DNA of 38,475 nucleotides, taken from the IMG/VR virus record IMGVR_UViG_3300017971_000499, positions 1-38,475 of that record. One strand, written 5' to 3'. Below, one piece after another: positions 3,545-12,219 of the stretch (positions are counted from its first letter, which is position 1; each line of letters opens with the position of its first letter). Under the pieces are notes generated by a model, which was given only the letters and a program-made list of their open reading frames with translations, was not told where the DNA came from and did not search any database. The position numbers and the translations under genes are program-made. Origin of the DNA: a virus.

Positions 3545-5125
3545 ATGAGAGTAGGATTTTTACGCGGTCCCCCTATTATCCCCGTAATGAGCGCGGATTC
3601 TGCACCCACTGCGGCGGATCTTCAGGCGGACCTTCAGCGCGTGATGCAGATGAAGGCGGAGGCGCAGCGGAAGTTGATCCTGGAGGAGCGCCGCCTAGAC
3701 GTCCTAGCCACCGTCTTAGGGTACCGCGTCCTCCCCTTCCACTGGATTCTGATACAGGCTAAGCGAAGGACCCCGGGACCCTGGCGGATGTATCTGGCCC
3801 CGCGGGGTGCCGGGAAGAGCACCATCCTGACCGTCGTGGACTCCGTGGGGATCCCCCTCTGGGAGCCGGACGTCCGAATCCTCCTCGCCTCCCGGGTCAA
3901 GGACCAGGCGAAGGACCTCCTAACGGAGATCCAGGGCTGCTTCGAGGTCCCCCGCTTCTGTGAACTCTTCGGGGACCTGAAGGGCTCGAAGTGGGGGGCG
4001 GGGGAGGCTACCATCTCTACGCGCCGGAAGAAGTGGAAGGAGCCGACCTGGCTCGCTTGCGGGGCGGACGGTCCGGTGACCTCCAAGCACTTTGACTACA
4101 TCAAGGCGGACGATCTCGTCGACGAGAAGAACTCTCGGACGGAGGGGGAGCGGGAGCGGATCCGGGTCTTCTTCTACAAGACGCTGGTCCCGACTCTGAT
4201 TCACGTCCGGGAGGACGGGAGTCCCGGGGAGATCGACGTAATCGGGACGCGCTACCACCCGGAGGACATCTACGCGCACCTGGAGGACGACCCGAAGATC
4301 CGCCGGGGGAACGTCTGCGAGATCCCCGCGTTGGTCGATCCGGAGACGGGGGAGCGGGACGAGACCGGGGTCTCCGTCGTAGAGGAGATCCTCCCCGCGG
4401 AGGACCTGAAGGACCTCCGGATCTCGATGGGGAGCGCGCACTTCGACTCCCAGTACCAGCAGAGCACCAAGCGGATGAAGGGGGACATCTTCAAGGATGA
4501 GATGTTCCAGTACTTCGACGAGCCTCCGTTCGACCTCATTCAGCGCCTGGAGTTGAAGGTCTGGGGGGCCTGTGACCTCGCGGTGACGGAGGAGCAGATC
4601 AAGAAGAACGACGAGTACGCGGACTGCGTGATTGGGGTGGACGACCGGGACCCCTCCTCTCTGGAGGTCTACGTTCTGGAACTCTTTCACGGTCAGATCC
4701 CCTACCACGTTCAGATCGCGCGCGCCGCCTACCTCTTCGAGAAGTGGGATCTCATCCGCTTTGGGATAGAGGCGAACGCGTTCCAGAAGTCGCGTCTCTT
4801 CTCCGTCTATCGGGAGCTGGGAGCGGAGATCGGGGACCGCTGCATCCCGGTCATCACCCTGACGGACAAGGTCACCCGGGCCTGGAAGCTTTCCGCGCGG
4901 TACGAGGCGGGGCGGGTCTACCACCGGAAGGGGGACAAGATGACGAACGACCTCGAGGAGCAGCTCCTCGGGTTCCCGAAGCTGAAGCGGGACGACATCT
5001 TTGACGCGGAGGATCTCGCGATCCAGCTCGGGTGCGTCTACCGCGCCAGGAAGAAACGGAAGCGGAAGGTCGGGCTCTTTGGCGGGCGGAGCAGTACCCG
5101 GCGTCGGGCCTTCTCGCTGACCTGA
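3545..5125 (+). CDS. terL: terminase large subunit (packaging ATPase/nuclease)
   Basis: A 526 aa motor protein that pumps DNA into the prohead and cuts concatemers. The N-terminal ATPase has Walker A APRGAGKS at residues 85-92 and a Walker B-like hydrophobic strand ending in Asp (FDYIKADD, 183-190), followed by the conserved GTRYHPEDIY segment. The C-terminal RNase H-like nuclease shows an acidic first residue in CDLAV (D344), FGIEANAF (E409) and a late acidic cluster DDIFDAED (483-490). The start at 3545 has GGAGG only 3 nt upstream, which is tight. An in-frame ATG at 3587 is an alternative, since TATTAT (3574-3579) lies 7 nt before it and the first 14 residues look unlike a TerL N-terminus. 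A basic tail (KKRKRK) ends the protein. Confidence 0.95.
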   Translation: MRVGFLRGPPIIPVMSADSAPTAADLQADLQRVMQMKAEAQRKLILEERRLDVLATVLGYRVLPFHWILIQAKRRTPGPWRMYLAPRGAGKSTILTVVDSVGIPLWEPDVRILLASRVKDQAKDLLTEIQGCFEVPRFCELFGDLKGSKWGAGEATISTRRKKWKEPTWLACGADGPVTSKHFDYIKADDLVDEKNSRTEGERERIRVFFYKTLVPTLIHVREDGSPGEIDVIGTRYHPEDIYAHLEDDPKIRRGNVCEIPALVDPETGERDETGVSVVEEILPAEDLKDLRISMGSAHFDSQYQQSTKRMKGDIFKDEMFQYFDEPPFDLIQRLELKVWGACDLAVTEEQIKKNDEYADCVIGVDDRDPSSLEVYVLELFHGQIPYHVQIARAAYLFEKWDLIRFGIEANAFQKSRLFSVYRELGAEIGDRCIPVITLTDKVTRAWKLSARYEAGRVYHRKGDKMTNDLEEQLLGFPKLKRDDIFDAEDLAIQLGCVYRARKKRKRKVGLFGGRSSTRRRAFSLT

Positions 5126-5138
5126 TAAGGAGAAGAAG

Positions 5139-5672
5139 ATGAGCACGATGGGTCAGAAGCTCTTGGGTTTGAAGAAGGCCTTGGACAGTGGGGAAAGACT
5201 CTCGGACGAAGAGGTCGCCCTCCTCGCTACCCTGAAGCGGGAGCAGAACGTGGGGAAGCGTCACGTTGCGGTCTCCAAGCTTGCCCTCCGTGAGGGGGAG
5301 GAGCTGTGGGACTTCATGTGGACGATGGTGGAGGCAGTTCAGACGAACAGAATCATCCTCGCGGACGGTTCCCTGGACGCGTGGCTCCAGGGGATCTACG
5401 ACGACCACGTGATCGTCCAGGACGGGAACACCGGGAGGATGTTCAAGGCGAACTTCACCCGGGACGCGAACGGGGAGATCTCCTTCTCCGACCCGGTAGA
5501 GGTCCGGATGGAGTGGGTCCCCGTGGAGTCCGCCGCTCCAGAGATGGGGGGAGAGGACGTTCAGCGCGTGGAGAAGCGCGCCGCCCCGGAGGTGAAGTAC
5601 GTCGAGGTGATGAAGCGGAGTGGAGGGAAGTGGGGCGGGATCCTCCCGGAGCACTTCCAGAGCAGGAGGTAA
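5139..5672 (+). CDS. hypothetical virion-associated protein
   Basis: A 177 aa protein with AAGGAG upstream, 13 nt after terL. The first half is helical (QKLLGLKKALDSGERLSDEEVALLATLKREQN). The second half contains VIVQDGNTGRMFKANFTRDANGEISFSDPVEV, a beta-rich segment like those found in proteins of the phage head protease/scaffold region. This suggests a head-assembly role but does not identify a family. The C-terminal end is basic. Its position between the large terminase and the portal fits a minor head component or assembly factor. Confidence 0.75.
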   Translation: MSTMGQKLLGLKKALDSGERLSDEEVALLATLKREQNVGKRHVAVSKLALREGEELWDFMWTMVEAVQTNRIILADGSLDAWLQGIYDDHVIVQDGNTGRMFKANFTRDANGEISFSDPVEVRMEWVPVESAAPEMGGEDVQRVEKRAAPEVKYVEVMKRSGGKWGGILPEHFQSRR

Positions 5673-5675
5673 CTC

Positions 5676-6089
5676 ATGACCGCCGTGATCGAAACGCCCC
5701 GCGTCTCCTGGGCTCCGGACCAGCGCATCGCTCGGATTGTCAAGGCGAACGACGCCGCGCTCCCCGCGAAGAAGAGCGAGGGCCTGAACTGCGCGGACTT
5801 CGACGATCTGTTTGTCTACGTCACCCTCTTGAACGGGGCGACCGCCGCGACCGTGGAACCCCACTTCTGGAGTTCCTTCAAGGACGGGACTCCGAACGGG
5901 GGGTTCGTCCCGGAGGCGACCCCGCAGGTGATCACCGCCACCGCGGCCGGGGTGGTAAAGCGCATCAAGGTTCACCATCAGGGGTCCGTCTTCTTCGAGG
6001 TGACCGGGATCGCCGGGGGTCTAGCAACGGACGAGCGGGTCCGGGTGGAGGTCTCCGGGGTGCCTGTCTACGGTCAGGCCGGAGGTTAG
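5676..6089 (+). CDS. small beta-rich putative head protein
   Basis: A 137 aa protein with AGGAGG 7 nt upstream of its ATG. It contains alternating strands and turns (VYVTLLNGATAATVEPHFWS, VVKRIKVHHQGSVFFEVTG, RVRVEVSGVPVYG), the look of a beta-sandwich. It sits between the 177 aa protein and the portal and is co-transcribed with both. Small beta-sandwich proteins here could be decoration or accessory head proteins. There is no recognised family signature, so the function is left open. Confidence 0.7.
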   Translation: MTAVIETPRVSWAPDQRIARIVKANDAALPAKKSEGLNCADFDDLFVYVTLLNGATAATVEPHFWSSFKDGTPNGGFVPEATPQVITATAAGVVKRIKVHHQGSVFFEVTGIAGGLATDERVRVEVSGVPVYGQAGG

Positions 6090-6092
6090 TCC

Positions 6093-8114
6093 GTGGGGAA
6101 CGGTAAGCAGGGCGGGAACGCCGCCACCGTGGAGATCCGGCGGGACTACGCGGACTCCCCTACGACGAAGGAGATCGTCAAGCGGAACGTACACGCGCTC
6201 CGCGCCACGGTGATCGGGCTCTCCCGCGTCAGGAAGCAGGGTCTGAAGAAGCAGGCGGGATCCGGGACCTCCGCGGGGGAGAGCAAGGCGAAGGAGGTTG
6301 ACCCCTGGACCACTCTGGAGCGGGAGAGGAAGATCGTCCCGCCGCCCTACGACCTCCTAACCCTCGCGGTGATGCCGGAGAATAACACGGAGTTGGGTCC
6401 GGCGATCGACGCGATGACGATCAACGTCGAGTCCTTCGGTTACCGCATGGAACCGCGCGTCCCAGTGAACGAGGATACCCCGGTGGAGATCCTGGAGGAA
6501 CTCGTTCAGGAGGAGGCGCGGACGCAGAACTTCTTCGAGAACTGCTGCGCCGGGGAGGACGAGTCTCTGGAGGACCTCCGGGAGAAGTGCCGGAAGGACC
6601 TCGAGGCGACCGGGAACATGTACGTGGAGTTCGTCGAGTTCCCGGGCTCGAACCGACTGGACGGTCTGAATCACCTCCCATCCTGGACGATGCGGATCGG
6701 GCGGATGGACGAGAAGCCCACCGCTTACGTGGACAGACAGGTCCGGAAGCAGGTTCGCCTCCGTCCGCTGGAACCGGAGGTTTCGGAGTCCGAGGTGACC
6801 CCGGAGCGGACCTCCCTGGAGAACGCACCGGACCTCCCCGTCTCCGAAATAGCGAAGCAGCGGTTCGCGGAGGAGGTCTCCTACGAGATCTCGGAGGTGG
6901 TTCGCTATCGCCGGTTCCGAAGGTACGTCCAGATCGTGGACGGGTGCTCCACGTGGTTCAAGGAACTGGGGGACCCCCGGCTCATCTCCTGCAAGGACGG
7001 GCACGTGGTGACGCGGGAGGAGCTGACTACGGAGGCCCGGGACGGTTCGGAGGAGCCGCGCTTCGTCCTCCGCGGGGCCAACCTGGAGATCCGGATCGGG
7101 AAGCTGGGCTTCCCCGTGGCTTACGCCGCGAACCCCGTTCGTCATCGTCGGATTTACTGCACCCGCTCCCCCTACGGGCTCCCGCGCTACGGGGGGCACC
7201 TCTTCTGCATCTTCGGGTCCCGGGCCGCGGAGGAGATCAACTACACGACGTTCAAGAACAACAACGTCCCGAGCATGGCGATCTCCGTCTCCAACGGGAA
7301 GTTGGACGACGAGTCCCTGGAGCGGATCGAGGAGTTTGTCGAGGCTCAGATCCAGAGCGACGACAACTACTCAAAGTTTCTCCTTCTGGAGGCGGAGCCG
7401 GTGATGGAGGGGATGCGGGATCCGGGGTCGATGAAGATCGACATCGTCCCGCTGACCAAGGAGCAGCACACGGACGCGCTCTTTGTCAACTACCAGGAGG
7501 CGAACGACGACCGGGTCCGTCGCGCTTGGCGCTTCCCGCCCATCTTCGTCGGGAAGAGTGAGGACTTCTCCGGGAAGACGATCGAGGCGTCCCGGAAGCT
7601 CGCGGACGAGCAGGTCTTCCAGCCGGAGCGGAACAAGATAGACCGCTTCTACACCCAGGATGTCTTGGTCCGGTACTTGGACGTGGTTTGGTCTACGTTC
7701 AAGTCACAGTCCCCGAACGTGACGGAGAACGCGGACCTGGTCAAGCTTCTCGCTCAGGGCGAGAAGACCGGAGGCTTGACCCCGCGGATCGCCCGGAAGT
7801 TGATCGGGCGCGTGGTCAACGAGAAGCTGGGGGAGATCGACCCGGACTTCCTCAACCCGGACCAACCGTTCTCCTTGACCCTGGCGCAGCTGATGAAGTC
7901 GGACTCCGCCACTGAGGCGGAGGGGGGTGGGGAGAGCACGAGTCAGGGGAGAGCCGGTCTTCAAGTCGGGGGACCGGACCGGGACCGCACGGAGGAACCG
8001 GCCGCGGAGGACCTCGAGGAGGCGGAGGTGGAGCGCCTCTCGGAGCAGATTCGGGAGGAGTGCCGCGCCCGCTTCGGCGGGTTCGTACCCCCCACCTTTG
8101 CGGAGGAGGAGTAG
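6093..8114 (+). CDS. portal protein
   Basis: A 673 aa protein starting at GTG 6093, with GGAGG 7 nt upstream and only 3 nt after the previous stop. Twelve copies form the DNA entry and exit ring at the capsid vertex. Diagnostic segments include VPPPYDLLTLAVMPENNTEL and PAIDAMTINVESFG near residues 75-115, the YGLPRYGGHL segment around 360, and the long stem-helix region EEINYTTFKNNNVPSMAISVSN. After this come the clip/wing part (FRFPP-like RAWRFPPIFVGKSEDFSGKTIEASRKLADEQVF), which is typical of PBSX-family portals. The C-terminal 70 residues are acidic and probably flexible. The gene sits between TerL and the minor head protein, the standard order. It is longer than most PBSX-type portals, mainly at both ends. 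Confidence 0.93.
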   Translation: MGNGKQGGNAATVEIRRDYADSPTTKEIVKRNVHALRATVIGLSRVRKQGLKKQAGSGTSAGESKAKEVDPWTTLERERKIVPPPYDLLTLAVMPENNTELGPAIDAMTINVESFGYRMEPRVPVNEDTPVEILEELVQEEARTQNFFENCCAGEDESLEDLREKCRKDLEATGNMYVEFVEFPGSNRLDGLNHLPSWTMRIGRMDEKPTAYVDRQVRKQVRLRPLEPEVSESEVTPERTSLENAPDLPVSEIAKQRFAEEVSYEISEVVRYRRFRRYVQIVDGCSTWFKELGDPRLISCKDGHVVTREELTTEARDGSEEPRFVLRGANLEIRIGKLGFPVAYAANPVRHRRIYCTRSPYGLPRYGGHLFCIFGSRAAEEINYTTFKNNNVPSMAISVSNGKLDDESLERIEEFVEAQIQSDDNYSKFLLLEAEPVMEGMRDPGSMKIDIVPLTKEQHTDALFVNYQEANDDRVRRAWRFPPIFVGKSEDFSGKTIEASRKLADEQVFQPERNKIDRFYTQDVLVRYLDVVWSTFKSQSPNVTENADLVKLLAQGEKTGGLTPRIARKLIGRVVNEKLGEIDPDFLNPDQPFSLTLAQLMKSDSATEAEGGGESTSQGRAGLQVGGPDRDRTEEPAAEDLEEAEVERLSEQIREECRARFGGFVPPTFAEEE

Positions 8115-9128
8115 ATGAACCTCCGGACCGTCCGGGGCGTAACCCCGGAGGTTCTAGCTGGGCTCTCGGACTCCGAGTTGATCACCCTTGCGGACGCCGT
8201 CTCCGGGGTCACTGGGGAGGAGTTCGTTACGAAGGGGGAGCGGGAGGACGCGGCGGAGCGGACTCTGGCACAAGAGTTAGAGGACGACTACCTCGGGGAC
8301 CTCTACCCCGCCGCGGAGGCGGAGTTGGAGACCCTCCCGGAGACCGCGGTGGAGACGGAGGAGGTCGCTAGAGCGCTCCTGGGGATAGGAGAGCGGATGA
8401 ACGCCCGGGACGTTACTAGAACCCGAGAAATCCTCTCCGCCGGGGTTATAGCGCTAGCAGCGCTCTCTCGTGGGACGTTACGGGAGCGGTTCCCAGAGGG
8501 GACACCCCGGACCTCCCCCTCCTTCTCTGCGCGGGACGTCTCCTCCCTGGAGCGGATCGGGGGTCAACAACTCTGGTGGATTGGGGACCTCTGGGGGGAG
8601 CACCTCTCCCGGCGGATCGCCTTGACCGTGGAGCGGGCCGCGGAGGGGATCGGACTCGGGAGGGTTCAGGTCGGGGAGATCCTCCGCGGGGTGGTCCAGA
8701 ACGGGACGGGGGCTCAAGTACCGGGGACCTGGAACGGGTCCGTCGGGGGGTATTTTCAGATGCTGGCCGGTACGGTCCGGGCGCGGTCCTCCGCCACCGG
8801 GGCGATCTTCACGATGCGGGACGCGGAGTTCCTCAACTACCGGATCTCCGCGGTGATGGACGAGCGGACCTCTGAGGTCTGCCTCAGGATGGACAACCGG
8901 ACATTCCGAGTCCGGGACGCGGAGCGGCAGATAGAGCGTGCGGAGGCCGCGGAGAATCCGGAGGAGTTCAAGGGGGTAGCCGGTTGGGTCAGCGCGGAGC
9001 GGGTCTCGGAGATAGCCGGGACCGGAACCGCGGCGGAGCAGTCTTCCAATCTATCGGACGCCGGATTAGCGCTTCCTCCCTACCACGGAGGATGCAGGAC
9101 CGTGGTTATCGAGGAGGGGCGCGCGTGA
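8115..9128 (+). CDS. minor head protein, SPP1 gp7/Mu F-like
   Basis: A 337 aa head morphogenesis protein whose ATG abuts the portal stop codon, with a GGAGGAG SD inside the portal 3' end. The signature of the family is at the C-terminal end: DERTSEVC (D249 to C256) followed by PPYHGGCRT (321-329), with H324 and C327 in the conserved positions. The N-terminal 130 residues are helical and acidic. Members of this family bind the portal and are packaged in few copies, possibly interacting with DNA. The gene's end overlaps the next start by GTGA, so the protease gene is translationally coupled to it. Confidence 0.9.
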   Translation: MNLRTVRGVTPEVLAGLSDSELITLADAVSGVTGEEFVTKGEREDAAERTLAQELEDDYLGDLYPAAEAELETLPETAVETEEVARALLGIGERMNARDVTRTREILSAGVIALAALSRGTLRERFPEGTPRTSPSFSARDVSSLERIGGQQLWWIGDLWGEHLSRRIALTVERAAEGIGLGRVQVGEILRGVVQNGTGAQVPGTWNGSVGGYFQMLAGTVRARSSATGAIFTMRDAEFLNYRISAVMDERTSEVCLRMDNRTFRVRDAERQIERAEAAENPEEFKGVAGWVSAERVSEIAGTGTAAEQSSNLSDAGLALPPYHGGCRTVVIEEGRA

Positions 9129-10957
9129 GCAAGGAGCGAGAGATGAGCAGCGACGAGCAGAAGAAGCAGGAGGCGGTGGAGCGCGGGGCGGACCTCCTCC
9201 TCCCCCTGAACCTCGAACCCCGTCAGGTGCAGGCGTTCGAGTTTGCGGTGGACAAGTTCCGGTCCGCCGCCGCGGCGAAGAGCTGGGCGAAGAACCACGG
9301 GTTCTCCCCGAGTGAGACCCCGCGGCAGTTCCGGAAGTCCATTTGCCTCCGCGTCCGCGCGGAGGAGGAGTTCGAGGACGGGACCCTTCAGCGGTCACGG
9401 TTGACCCGGGACGTCTTCGTCACCGCGGGGGAGCCGCTCTCCCGGGAGGTTCCGGTTCAGCGGGCGGTCCCGGCGGCGGACGCCTCGAACGAAGAGAAGC
9501 GCGAGGCTCAAGCGGCGCGCTCCGAGCGTTGGGGGATCGAGGCCCTGGAGGGGAAGGGGGAGAACCTCTCCTTCCCCGCGGACGGTCCGACCTCCGAGGA
9601 GGACTACGCGGATCCCGTGAACCTGAAGTACCCGGTGGAGACGGAGGCGCGCGCCGCGAACGCGCGGGTCCGATTCAAGCAGAACGCGGACGTCTACGAG
9701 GAGGAGAAGTCGAAGGCGGTCATTCACGAGCGGATAATCCGCGCGGAACTCTCGTTCGGGATCGACCCCTCCTTCGACCCGGGCGACCCCCTGGACGCCC
9801 TCCTCCCCGCGGACCTGAAGGACCAGATCTCCAAGACGGTGAAGTTCGCCAAGCGTGGGGAGCTGATTGTCCGGAAGGCGAATGAGGGGGATCCGGAGGA
9901 GTCCGTCCGGATGTTCGGGATCGTGATGAAGCCGGAGGTCCCGGACTCGGACGGGATTGTGACCTCGAAGGAGGAGATCGAGAGCGCGAACCTGGGGTTC
10001 ATGAAGGACTTCGGGATCACCGGGTTTATGCACAAGAAGGACATCTCCGAGCAGGTCTCGATCATCCAGAACGTGATCGCCCCGATCGACTTCGAGTTTC
10101 CCCTCCCGGACGGAACTACGAAGGCGATCTCGGCGGGGACTTGGTACCAGGAACTCTACTCCGAGGCCCCGGAGATCGTGGAGCGGGTTAAGGTCAAGAA
10201 GACCCTGAACGGGCTCTCCATCGGGGGGTTCGCGCAGACGGAGGAGATCACGGAGGCGGCGGAGGGGGGTGGCTTCACCCTCCGCCCGGACCTCCCGTAC
10301 TCCGAGACCCAGAAGCGGGCGCTCCTGGAGCACATCAACAGAGCGGAGGGGGATCCCACCCTCGGCCGCTTTCACAACCTTCGCGTTCAGGAGGTGTCCT
10401 TGGTCGACGCCGCCGCCAACGAGGAGGACTTTTTCATCGTAAAGAGGAGGAAAGACATGGGAACTGAGAAAACTCAACCGGCGGCGGATCCTAAGACCGG
10501 GGGCGTCGCACCTGAGGAGAAGCAGCAGCAGAACGAACCTTCGACCCCCGAGCCGGAGGCACCCCCGGCCGCTCCGGAGGTGACCCCGGAGAGCAAGAGT
10601 ATCGCGGAGCAAGTCGCGGAGGGCGTCTCCGCCGGGATCAAGGCCGCGATGGAGAGCGGTACCCTGGCCTCCGCTGAGAAGAGCGGCGGTTCCGAGGCCC
10701 CTACCGCCGCTCCGGAGACCCCGGAGGAAGGGCGGGAGTCGGAGGTGAAGAAGGGGATGTCGGAGATCTCTGAGGCTCTGAAGGGTATCAACCAGCGCCT
10801 TGACGCGCAGGAGGAGACCTTGAAGACGGTCACCAACGTGCAGGCCTCCGCGAAGGGTCAGGTCCCGGACGGGTCCACGACCCCGGAGCAGCCGGAGGAG
10901 AAGCCGACGAGCAAGTGGGCTGGGACCGCCGTCTCGAGGGTCTTCAGCAAGAAGTAA
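9125..10957 (+). CDS. XkdF-like prohead serine protease fused to scaffold domain
   Basis: A 610 aa protein starting at GTG 9125, which overlaps the previous TGA and has GAGGAGG 7 nt upstream. A second in-frame start (ATG 9143) with AAGGAG is also usable. Residues 35-110 (VDKFRSAAAAKSWAKNHGF) match a domain often linked to XkdF proteases. Residues 255-445 match the XkdF core: FGIVMKPEVPDSDGIVTSKEEIESANLGFM, then a His (H303) in FMHKKD, and LSIGGFA with S365, the likely catalytic pair. From about 445 onward the protein is Glu/Pro/Ala-rich and helical, the usual look of a scaffold. An internal start within this region is annotated separately. The protease cleaves scaffold and capsid during maturation. 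Confidence 0.88.
   Translation: MSKEREMSSDEQKKQEAVERGADLLLPLNLEPRQVQAFEFAVDKFRSAAAAKSWAKNHGFSPSETPRQFRKSICLRVRAEEEFEDGTLQRSRLTRDVFVTAGEPLSREVPVQRAVPAADASNEEKREAQAARSERWGIEALEGKGENLSFPADGPTSEEDYADPVNLKYPVETEARAANARVRFKQNADVYEEEKSKAVIHERIIRAELSFGIDPSFDPGDPLDALLPADLKDQISKTVKFAKRGELIVRKANEGDPEESVRMFGIVMKPEVPDSDGIVTSKEEIESANLGFMKDFGITGFMHKKDISEQVSIIQNVIAPIDFEFPLPDGTTKAISAGTWYQELYSEAPEIVERVKVKKTLNGLSIGGFAQTEEITEAAEGGGFTLRPDLPYSETQKRALLEHINRAEGDPTLGRFHNLRVQEVSLVDAAANEEDFFIVKRRKDMGTEKTQPAADPKTGGVAPEEKQQQNEPSTPEPEAPPAAPEVTPESKSIAEQVAEGVSAGIKAAMESGTLASAEKSGGSEAPTAAPETPEEGRESEVKKGMSEISEALKGINQRLDAQEETLKTVTNVQASAKGQVPDGSTTPEQPEEKPTSKWAGTAVSRVFSKK
10457..10957 (+). CDS. putative nested in-frame scaffold protein
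   Basis: An ATG at 10457, in frame with the protease gene, is preceded by AGGAGG (10445-10450) 6 nt upstream, as good an SD as any in the window. The site is encoded by a Lys-Arg-Arg-Lys stretch in which arginine is written AGG AGG although CGG is the usual codon here. The product is 166 aa: a Pro/Glu/Gln-rich linker, then helices (AEQVAEGVSAGIKAAMESG, EISEALKGINQRLDAQEETLKT) and a basic C-terminus, typical of scaffolds. Lambda C/Nu3 is a known precedent for a scaffold nested in a protease gene. Use of this start is inferred. Confidence 0.7.
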   Translation: MGTEKTQPAADPKTGGVAPEEKQQQNEPSTPEPEAPPAAPEVTPESKSIAEQVAEGVSAGIKAAMESGTLASAEKSGGSEAPTAAPETPEEGRESEVKKGMSEISEALKGINQRLDAQEETLKTVTNVQASAKGQVPDGSTTPEQPEEKPTSKWAGTAVSRVFSKK

Positions 10958-11028: not shown

Positions 11029-12219
11029 ATGACAAACGAGGAACTGGTTCAAAAAGCGCTCATCGCCACCGCGGACCTGGTCGCCGCGGGAAAGCTGAAC
11101 GACATGCAGTCGGACATGTTCATCGACTTCGTGATCGACGTGACCGAGCTTCGCGGCTCCGTCCGGACCGTCCGCTTCCGGAACGAGAACATGGTGATCG
11201 ACAAGATCGGCGTCGGTCAGCGCGTCTCCGTCCCGAAGGAGGAGGCGAAGGACCCGGGGATCCGGAGGGGCGTCCGCACCTCGAAGGTGAAGTTGACCCC
11301 GCAGGAGATCATGACTCCGTTCGAGATCTCCGACACCTTCGCGGAGCACAACATCGAGGGCGAGGAGGTCGAGGACACCGTGATGCGGCTGATGGCCACC
11401 CAGACCGCGAACGACATGGAGGAGATGATGGTCAACGGCGACGTCCTGGGTCCGGCCCGGATCGAGGACGACCTCATCGACGGGGGAGCCACGGACAAGG
11501 TGATCAAGGACTCCTTCATCGCCCTGATCGACGGCTGGCTCCGCCTGATGGACGCCGGGAACATCTACGACGCGGAGAACGCGAACATCTCCACGAAGAT
11601 CTTCTCCGGGATGATCAAGAAGATGCCGGTGAAGTTCCGCCGGACCCGCCGGAACCTCCGCTTCCTGATGTCGATGGACCTGGAGCAGAACTGGCGCGAG
11701 AAGGTCTCCTCCAGGGCGACCCCGGAGGGCGACTCCGCGCTGACCACTTCCGGTCAGATCCCCGTCTTCGGCGTTCCGATGGTCCCGGTCCCGCTCCTGG
11801 AGAGCGAGCCCCGAATCGTCGAGCATGTGACCTTCGGCGCGCACCCGGACACCCAGGCGCTGCGCTACAAGCCGATCGGGGATGTCGTCTACATCACCCC
11901 GAGCAACCTGGGCAACACCCCGGTGACCCCCTACGTGGAGACCACGGACTACACCGTGGACCGTGCCAACGGGGAGATCTCGACCACCGCGGCGGGAGCC
12001 GTGGTCAGCGGGACCTTCAAGGTCACCTACCAGTCCCGGGCGCAGATCATGCTCTGCGACTACCAGAACCTGATCCTCGCGATCGGGCGGGACATCCGGA
12101 TCGAGACGGACCGCGATATCTTCAAGGGGGTGAACCAGTTCGCCATCACCACGAAGATCGACGCGGAGATCGAGGAGGTCACCGCCACTGTGAAGGGCGT
12201 TAACATCGGCCTCGACTAG
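11029..12219 (+). CDS. major capsid protein (HK97-fold)
   Basis: A 396 aa shell protein. It follows the protease/scaffold and has a strong SD (GGAGG at 11016-11020). The N-terminal region is helical and could be the scaffold-like delta part or N-arm. The middle (TPQEIMTPFEISDTFAEHNIEGEEVEDTVMRLMATQTANDMEEMMVNG) is typical of the spine helix and E-loop region of PBSX-type capsid proteins. NISTKIFSGMIKKMP and the VPLL segment belong to the P-domain. Near residues 305-345 there is an inserted beta module (YVETTDYTVDRANGEISTT) that resembles Ig-like or I-domain insertions. Codon choice is noticeably more biased to C-ending codons than in neighbouring genes, as expected for the most abundant protein. 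It is flanked by hairpins on both sides. Confidence 0.92.
   Translation: MTNEELVQKALIATADLVAAGKLNDMQSDMFIDFVIDVTELRGSVRTVRFRNENMVIDKIGVGQRVSVPKEEAKDPGIRRGVRTSKVKLTPQEIMTPFEISDTFAEHNIEGEEVEDTVMRLMATQTANDMEEMMVNGDVLGPARIEDDLIDGGATDKVIKDSFIALIDGWLRLMDAGNIYDAENANISTKIFSGMIKKMPVKFRRTRRNLRFLMSMDLEQNWREKVSSRATPEGDSALTTSGQIPVFGVPMVPVPLLESEPRIVEHVTFGAHPDTQALRYKPIGDVVYITPSNLGNTPVTPYVETTDYTVDRANGEISTTAAGAVVSGTFKVTYQSRAQIMLCDYQNLILAIGRDIRIETDRDIFKGVNQFAITTKIDAEIEEVTATVKGVNIGLD

Follow-up and report, generated by a model that had tools for sequence, protein, structure and literature searches.

The question raised by this locus is how many proteins are made from the single reading frame that lies directly before a phage major capsid gene. 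The locus is part of IMG/VR virus record IMGVR_UViG_3300017971_000499, of which positions 1 to 38,475 were analysed; this whole stretch is referred to as the window. The gene at 9143-10957 very probably gives rise to two proteins in one frame: a protease-scaffold fusion, and a nested scaffold which begins at an internal ATG at 10457. The features which define this arrangement are as follows.

9143-10957, + strand: fused protease-scaffold open reading frame (ORF), 604 amino acids (aa), assigned from sequence and Shine-Dalgarno (SD) scores; alternative start GTG 9125
10445-10450, + strand: internal SD, AGGAGG, spelled by two AGG arginine codons
10457-10459, + strand: nested ATG, in-frame
10457-10957, + strand: nested product, a probable scaffold of 166 aa, 17.2 kDa, isoelectric point (pI) 4.7

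The first-pass annotation, made from the sequence alone, had placed an AGGAGG 6 nt upstream of an in-frame ATG within the protease gene. Direct reading bears this out: the SD is separated from the ATG by the spacer AAAGAC, the codons across the site are ATC GTA AAG AGG AGG AAA GAC ATG GGA, and the frame is shared with the ORF ending at 10957. AGG codons had also been said to stand where CGG is usual, and the codon counts of the gene agree (CGG 15, CGC 11, CGT 3, CGA 1, AGG 3, AGA 1). CGN codons account for 30 of the 34 arginine codons, and the SD is built from two of the four AGR codons. The nested start scores -15.2 kcal/mol against the anti-SD, compared with -10.9 (ATG 9143) or -14.6 (GTG 9125) for the protease, -11.3 for the capsid gene and -13.5 for the portal gene. 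The claim that it is as strong as any start in the window is nearly right; it is among the best, but a few others, such as those at 2566 and 27695, score higher. On the + strand there are 14 matches to AGGAGG-N4-9-ATG and on the - strand none, against 1.3 expected from a first-order model; the majority of the 14 sites are starts of plausible ORFs. When the codons of the window gene are shuffled synonymously, 0.7% of shuffles place an SD at least as good ahead of some internal ATG. Taken singly the window sequence is suggestive; the comparison with relatives is decisive.

Relatives were drawn from IMG/VR and via the capsid protein. The close set consists of the window and seven other distinct fused relatives from IMG/VR (L002, L003, L008, L009, L010, L011 and L030); L014 and L016/L017 repeat two of these genes. 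All eight distinct genes have an SD and ATG at the same junction, the end of an EVSxVDAxANEExxFxxKRR stretch, despite differing spacer codons. In L002, L009 and L010 the ATG is displaced by one codon and the spacer is altered, with the SD retained. The junction SD is itself spelled by varied codons (AGG AGG, CGA AGG AGA, CGG AGG, AGA AGG AGA). At the junction 15 of 19 arginine codons are AGR, versus 21 of 287 elsewhere (Fisher 1.6e-12). The mRNA from -30 to +30 around the ATG is weakly folded, ranking among the weakest 7% of its gene in eight of eight cases, and the G+C content of third codon positions (GC3) dips around the nested ATG. Immediately past the ATG, mean pairwise identity is 31%, compared with 66% ahead of it. 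Conservation of SD and ATG, AGR bias, weak folding, the GC3 dip and the drop in identity are the marks that a used start would leave.

The same junction suggests another explanation, in which the scaffold is freed solely by proteolysis and the SD-like DNA is unused, a by-product of a conserved Lys-Arg-Arg processing site. All eight close relatives have KRR, which sits at a sharp domain border. However, the arginine codons at the junction are of the rare AGR type, and most split or distant relatives lack KRR yet retain the SD and ATG. Release by proteolysis only is thus improbable.

A separate set of loci was retrieved with a capsid-protein profile and chosen without regard to the nested-start signal. 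A hidden Markov model (HMM) was trained on the protease region of 12 fused genes and applied to the more distant part of this set. That part contains 41 distinct fused genes, and in every one an internal start with an SD follows the protease. The SDs score -11.8 to -19.5 kcal/mol, 38 of the 41 at -15 or stronger, and are mostly AAGGAGGTAA; the best site per gene was picked, so these scores are selected. No such selection affects the constant position of the start or its lead over the next-best site, which usually scores -4 to -10 kcal/mol. The start lies mostly 70-90 codons past the EVSLVD motif, before an acidic scaffold region. Internal SD starts are also present in Streptomyces phages Jay2Jay and Moab (GTG), Rhodococcus phage Weasels2, Lactococcus phage 62501 and Stenotrophomonas phage DLP5. 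In the archaeal virus psiM2, GAGGTGAT precedes KRGDK/M. In split relatives, where protease and scaffold are separate ORFs, the start is found 4-13 codons past the same motif and the encoded residues vary (NQEEGD, KEGRG, LQEDT, NLQEVN). Homologues without the internal SD and start, named at first pass as evidence that would count against the nested start, are few: both elements are kept in seven of seven other close fused genes, 41 of 41 distant fused genes and most split loci. As judged from these loci, the nested start is conserved across a large lineage, from phages of soil bacteria to those of archaea, although the surrounding protein changes.

Over the genes, the p values from synonymous-codon shuffling combine to 4e-4. 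When the in-frame ATGs within the genes are compared, those at the junction are preceded by the better SDs (p 2e-5, from related sequences, in a count that includes cases breaking a first-ATG rule for the junction). The first-ATG rule itself was rejected; it breaks where a domain is inserted, as in L019-L022, L031, Streptomyces phages and the PBSX type. In the positive control, the annotated nested start of Mu Z, AGGAG stands before an in-frame ATG and scores -9.9.

Several points weigh against a used start that yields a scaffold. The shuffle result for the window is strong; for many relatives taken one at a time it is not, because the encoded Glu-Glu and Arg-Arg already favour SD-like DNA. 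The sequences are related, and their counts are of non-independent events. The anti-SD assumed in the scores may differ from that of the host. Sites are weak in L039, L046 and Bacillus phage PBP180, and none is convincing at the ATG in L044. Pfam and family searches found no match for the 166-aa part. Initiation by ribosomes at 10457 is itself deduced from sequence.

The protease part of the fusion has the following features.

9890-10246, + strand: XkdF serine protease core, Peptidase_S78_2 (PF14550)
10031-10033, + strand: codon of putative catalytic His297, H in 105 of 105 aligned relatives
10217-10219, + strand: codon of putative catalytic Ser359 (GLSIGG), S in 108 of 108 aligned relatives
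10391-10408, + strand: EVSLVD, predicted final strand of the protease fold, from the model and the T4 gp21 match
10406-10408, + strand: codon of Asp422, putative third catalytic residue, D in 88 of 88 aligned relatives

The XkdF-type assignment made at first pass is confirmed by the PF14550 profile (51.8 bits against a curated cut-off of 24, E 1e-13). An AlphaFold2 model of 9842-10954, built from 34 sequences, has a mean predicted local distance difference test (pLDDT) score of 64, and therefore only its protease part is firm. The protease domain has pLDDT mostly of 80-90 and ends at the junction; beyond it the chain is predicted to be disordered, then to form a helix of about 42 residues and, at the C-terminus, a second, short one. 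Among solved structures T4 gp21 (5jbl) is the nearest, with Z 11.4, root mean square deviation 3.4 and 138 aligned residues, model 1-194 on chain 6-173. In the model the protease thus has an assemblin/T4 gp21-like fold, matched over the whole domain. The link to gp21 rests on structure, since a sequence-only comparison of the family with T4 gp21 by hhalign gave no match; phmmer of the protease against PDB sequences found nothing. Herpesvirus assemblin is not among the structural matches listed, which excludes nothing. If the last aligned residues are ungapped, Asp422 falls on Asp168 of T4 gp21 (SLVD here, VGVD in T4), the catalytic aspartate of the T4 enzyme. The motif aspartate is replaced by glycine in DLP5 (VSLVGRAAN), and no clear motif is seen in FBPa45 and L338C. 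T4-type proteases have an H-S-D triad (PMC5694885).

The 166 aa after the nested ATG are acidic and rich in Glu, Ala and Pro, with 1.2% aromatic residues, Cys and His. A scaffold composition had been claimed for this part, and the pI of 4.7, the near-absence of aromatics and the helices in the model support it. Two helices are of interest.

10727-10852, + strand: predicted long helix (coiled-coil type) of the scaffold, model residues 296-337
10913-10954, + strand: conserved KWAGTAVxxV helix at the C-terminus of the scaffold

The C-terminal helix is a possible candidate for the end that binds the capsid protein. The gene directly precedes the major capsid gene, whose product is as follows.

11029-12219, + strand: major capsid protein (phrog_1623; XkdG-like), no N-terminal scaffold extension apparent in sequence

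The match to phrog_1623 has E 1.9e-72, and annotated major capsid proteins are among the protein's relatives. At the sequence level it has nothing like the N-terminal scaffold domain of HK97, the conserved region starting at once; a separate scaffold is therefore expected. The nested product could be made and serve as something other than a scaffold, for example a capsid chaperone or an internal head protein, and its lack of a family match would fit this. Such a role is very improbable given the position before the capsid gene, the acidic composition with few aromatics, the long helix, the conserved C-terminal helix and the absence of any other ORF between the protease and capsid genes. The nested product is probably the scaffold.

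The protease HMM reveals three architectures: fused, split and permuted. In split genes the protease ORF covers HMM positions to about 130 and the next ORF opens with 155-188, which includes the EVSLVD strand. In 24 split loci (L025, L026, L034-L048, L018-L022 and others) the protease ORF stops before the last strand, and the invariant Asp matching T4 gp21 Asp168 is on the long form of the scaffold. The model of the L025 protease matches T4 gp21 to residue 151 only (Z 9.1) and therefore lacks the part with Asp168. Each of the 24 scaffold ORFs has a possible start of its own, mostly after the protease stop and before the strand, and the nested start is usually 3' of the strand, within the scaffold ORF. 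Frameshifting or readthrough joining the two split products was considered and rejected; the relative frames are mixed (13/6/5) and L025 has no overlap, so there is no common recoding. In L019-L022 an extra GGAGG-4-ATG start (KQGGQ/M or KQGGP/M) is found at about codons 184-202 of the scaffold ORF, between the long and short starts, and three products are therefore possible. The split proteases of proteobacterial loci L113, L114, L115, L117, L118 and L120 continue beyond the XkdF core into an additional C-terminal region, which contains GHxH-like motifs.

The existence of split relatives shows that fusion or fission has happened, and the internal start could be a disused relic of two formerly separate genes. 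However, in split relatives the nested start comes after the protease strand, within the scaffold ORF and away from the gene border, and is therefore no border relic; position and spacer also drift while the SD is retained. A relic is the least probable of the alternatives.

Conservation of the Asp on the scaffold ORF indicates that the long form is made and matters; it may complete the split protease. Nested starts in split loci may separate this protease-completing form from plain scaffold. A wider model is slightly less likely than not. The split protease, with His and Ser, would be incomplete alone; the long scaffold N-terminus would supply the SxVD Asp strand; and the nested start would provide both a completing or tethering form and plain scaffold. 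Proteolysis would then depend on assembly with the scaffold. In the window gene the arrangement would be covalent, and in PBSX-type XkdF, where an EVSLVD-like strand (VSYVDKAAN) is N-terminal in L108 (PBP180) and L116 (Lactococcus 62501), it would be permuted. The split form suggests a way to hold a capsid protease inactive until scaffold is met.

For the window gene, ribosomes starting at 9143 (or 9125) would produce the 604-aa fusion of an assemblin-type XkdF protease and a scaffold tail, and the tail would bring the protease into the procapsid. Initiation at the internal SD and ATG 10457 would yield the 166-aa scaffold alone, probably in excess. This scaffold would guide assembly of the capsid protein encoded next, after which the protease would degrade it; both the ratio of products and the degradation are presumed here.

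The GTG at 9125 overlaps the stop of the preceding gene, and both it and ATG 9143 carry an SD. Genes for terminase, portal and a Mu F-like head protein lie 5' of the ORF. One further module is present within it.

9596-9766, + strand: DUF6582-like module (PF20223, slightly under the Pfam cut-off), optional among relatives

This module is mobile: it precedes the protease in the window, is absent from L008, L010 and L011, and is within the scaffold ORF in L019-L022. With the whole ORF as query, tblastn found no match at 1e-5 among 50,697 phage records, and no relatives were found in the genome contigs searched. A literature search on XkdF scaffolds or nested starts returned nothing relevant, most subscription papers being outside its scope. 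Annotations of the cultured relatives examined name a protease at most and never a scaffold. The locus offers a likely scaffold, and a route for its production, for XkdF/XkdG-type heads, which occur in Streptomyces, Rhodococcus, archaeal and many uncultivated phages.

The nested protease/scaffold layout is already known from lambda and Mu. The first-pass annotation had likened the locus to lambda C/Nu3 set in an XkdF-type protease, and the relatives, with an in-frame ribosome binding site and start after the protease domain, strongly support this. Both are single head-operon genes with the protease first and a scaffold, probable in the window gene, nested in-frame with a common C-terminus. Lambda C differs in being annotated as an S49 peptidase, another family than XkdF, and at codon 239, where RefSeq places the nu3 start, there is hardly any SD (-3.4). 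The strongest internal site in lambda C (L121, lambda 4000-8000) is an AGGAGG-4-ATG at codon 309 (-13.4), before MTKETQSTT and 70 codons past the RefSeq nu3 start. In Mu, scaffold Z also starts in-frame inside protease gene I, directly before the major head gene and with the SD AGGAG; host and operon differ. T4 gp21 shares the protease fold over a range covering the EVSLVD strand and Asp168. However, the T4 scaffold gp22 is a separate gene, and the annotated internal start of gene 21 yields a shorter protease. PBSX-type XkdF (PBP180 and Lactococcus 62501) has the XkdF core, a scaffold-like tail and a position directly before an XkdG-like capsid gene. Lactococcus 62501 has AGGAGG ahead of an internal ATG; this type differs in its permuted order, and the internal SD of PBP180 is weak. 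Herpesvirus UL26/UL26.5 consists of an assemblin-type protease fused to scaffold, with an in-frame nested scaffold. The herpesvirus nested product is made from a separate transcript, whereas internal initiation on the same message is proposed here. The nested layout of lambda, Mu and herpesviruses would thus extend to a phage protease of assemblin fold.
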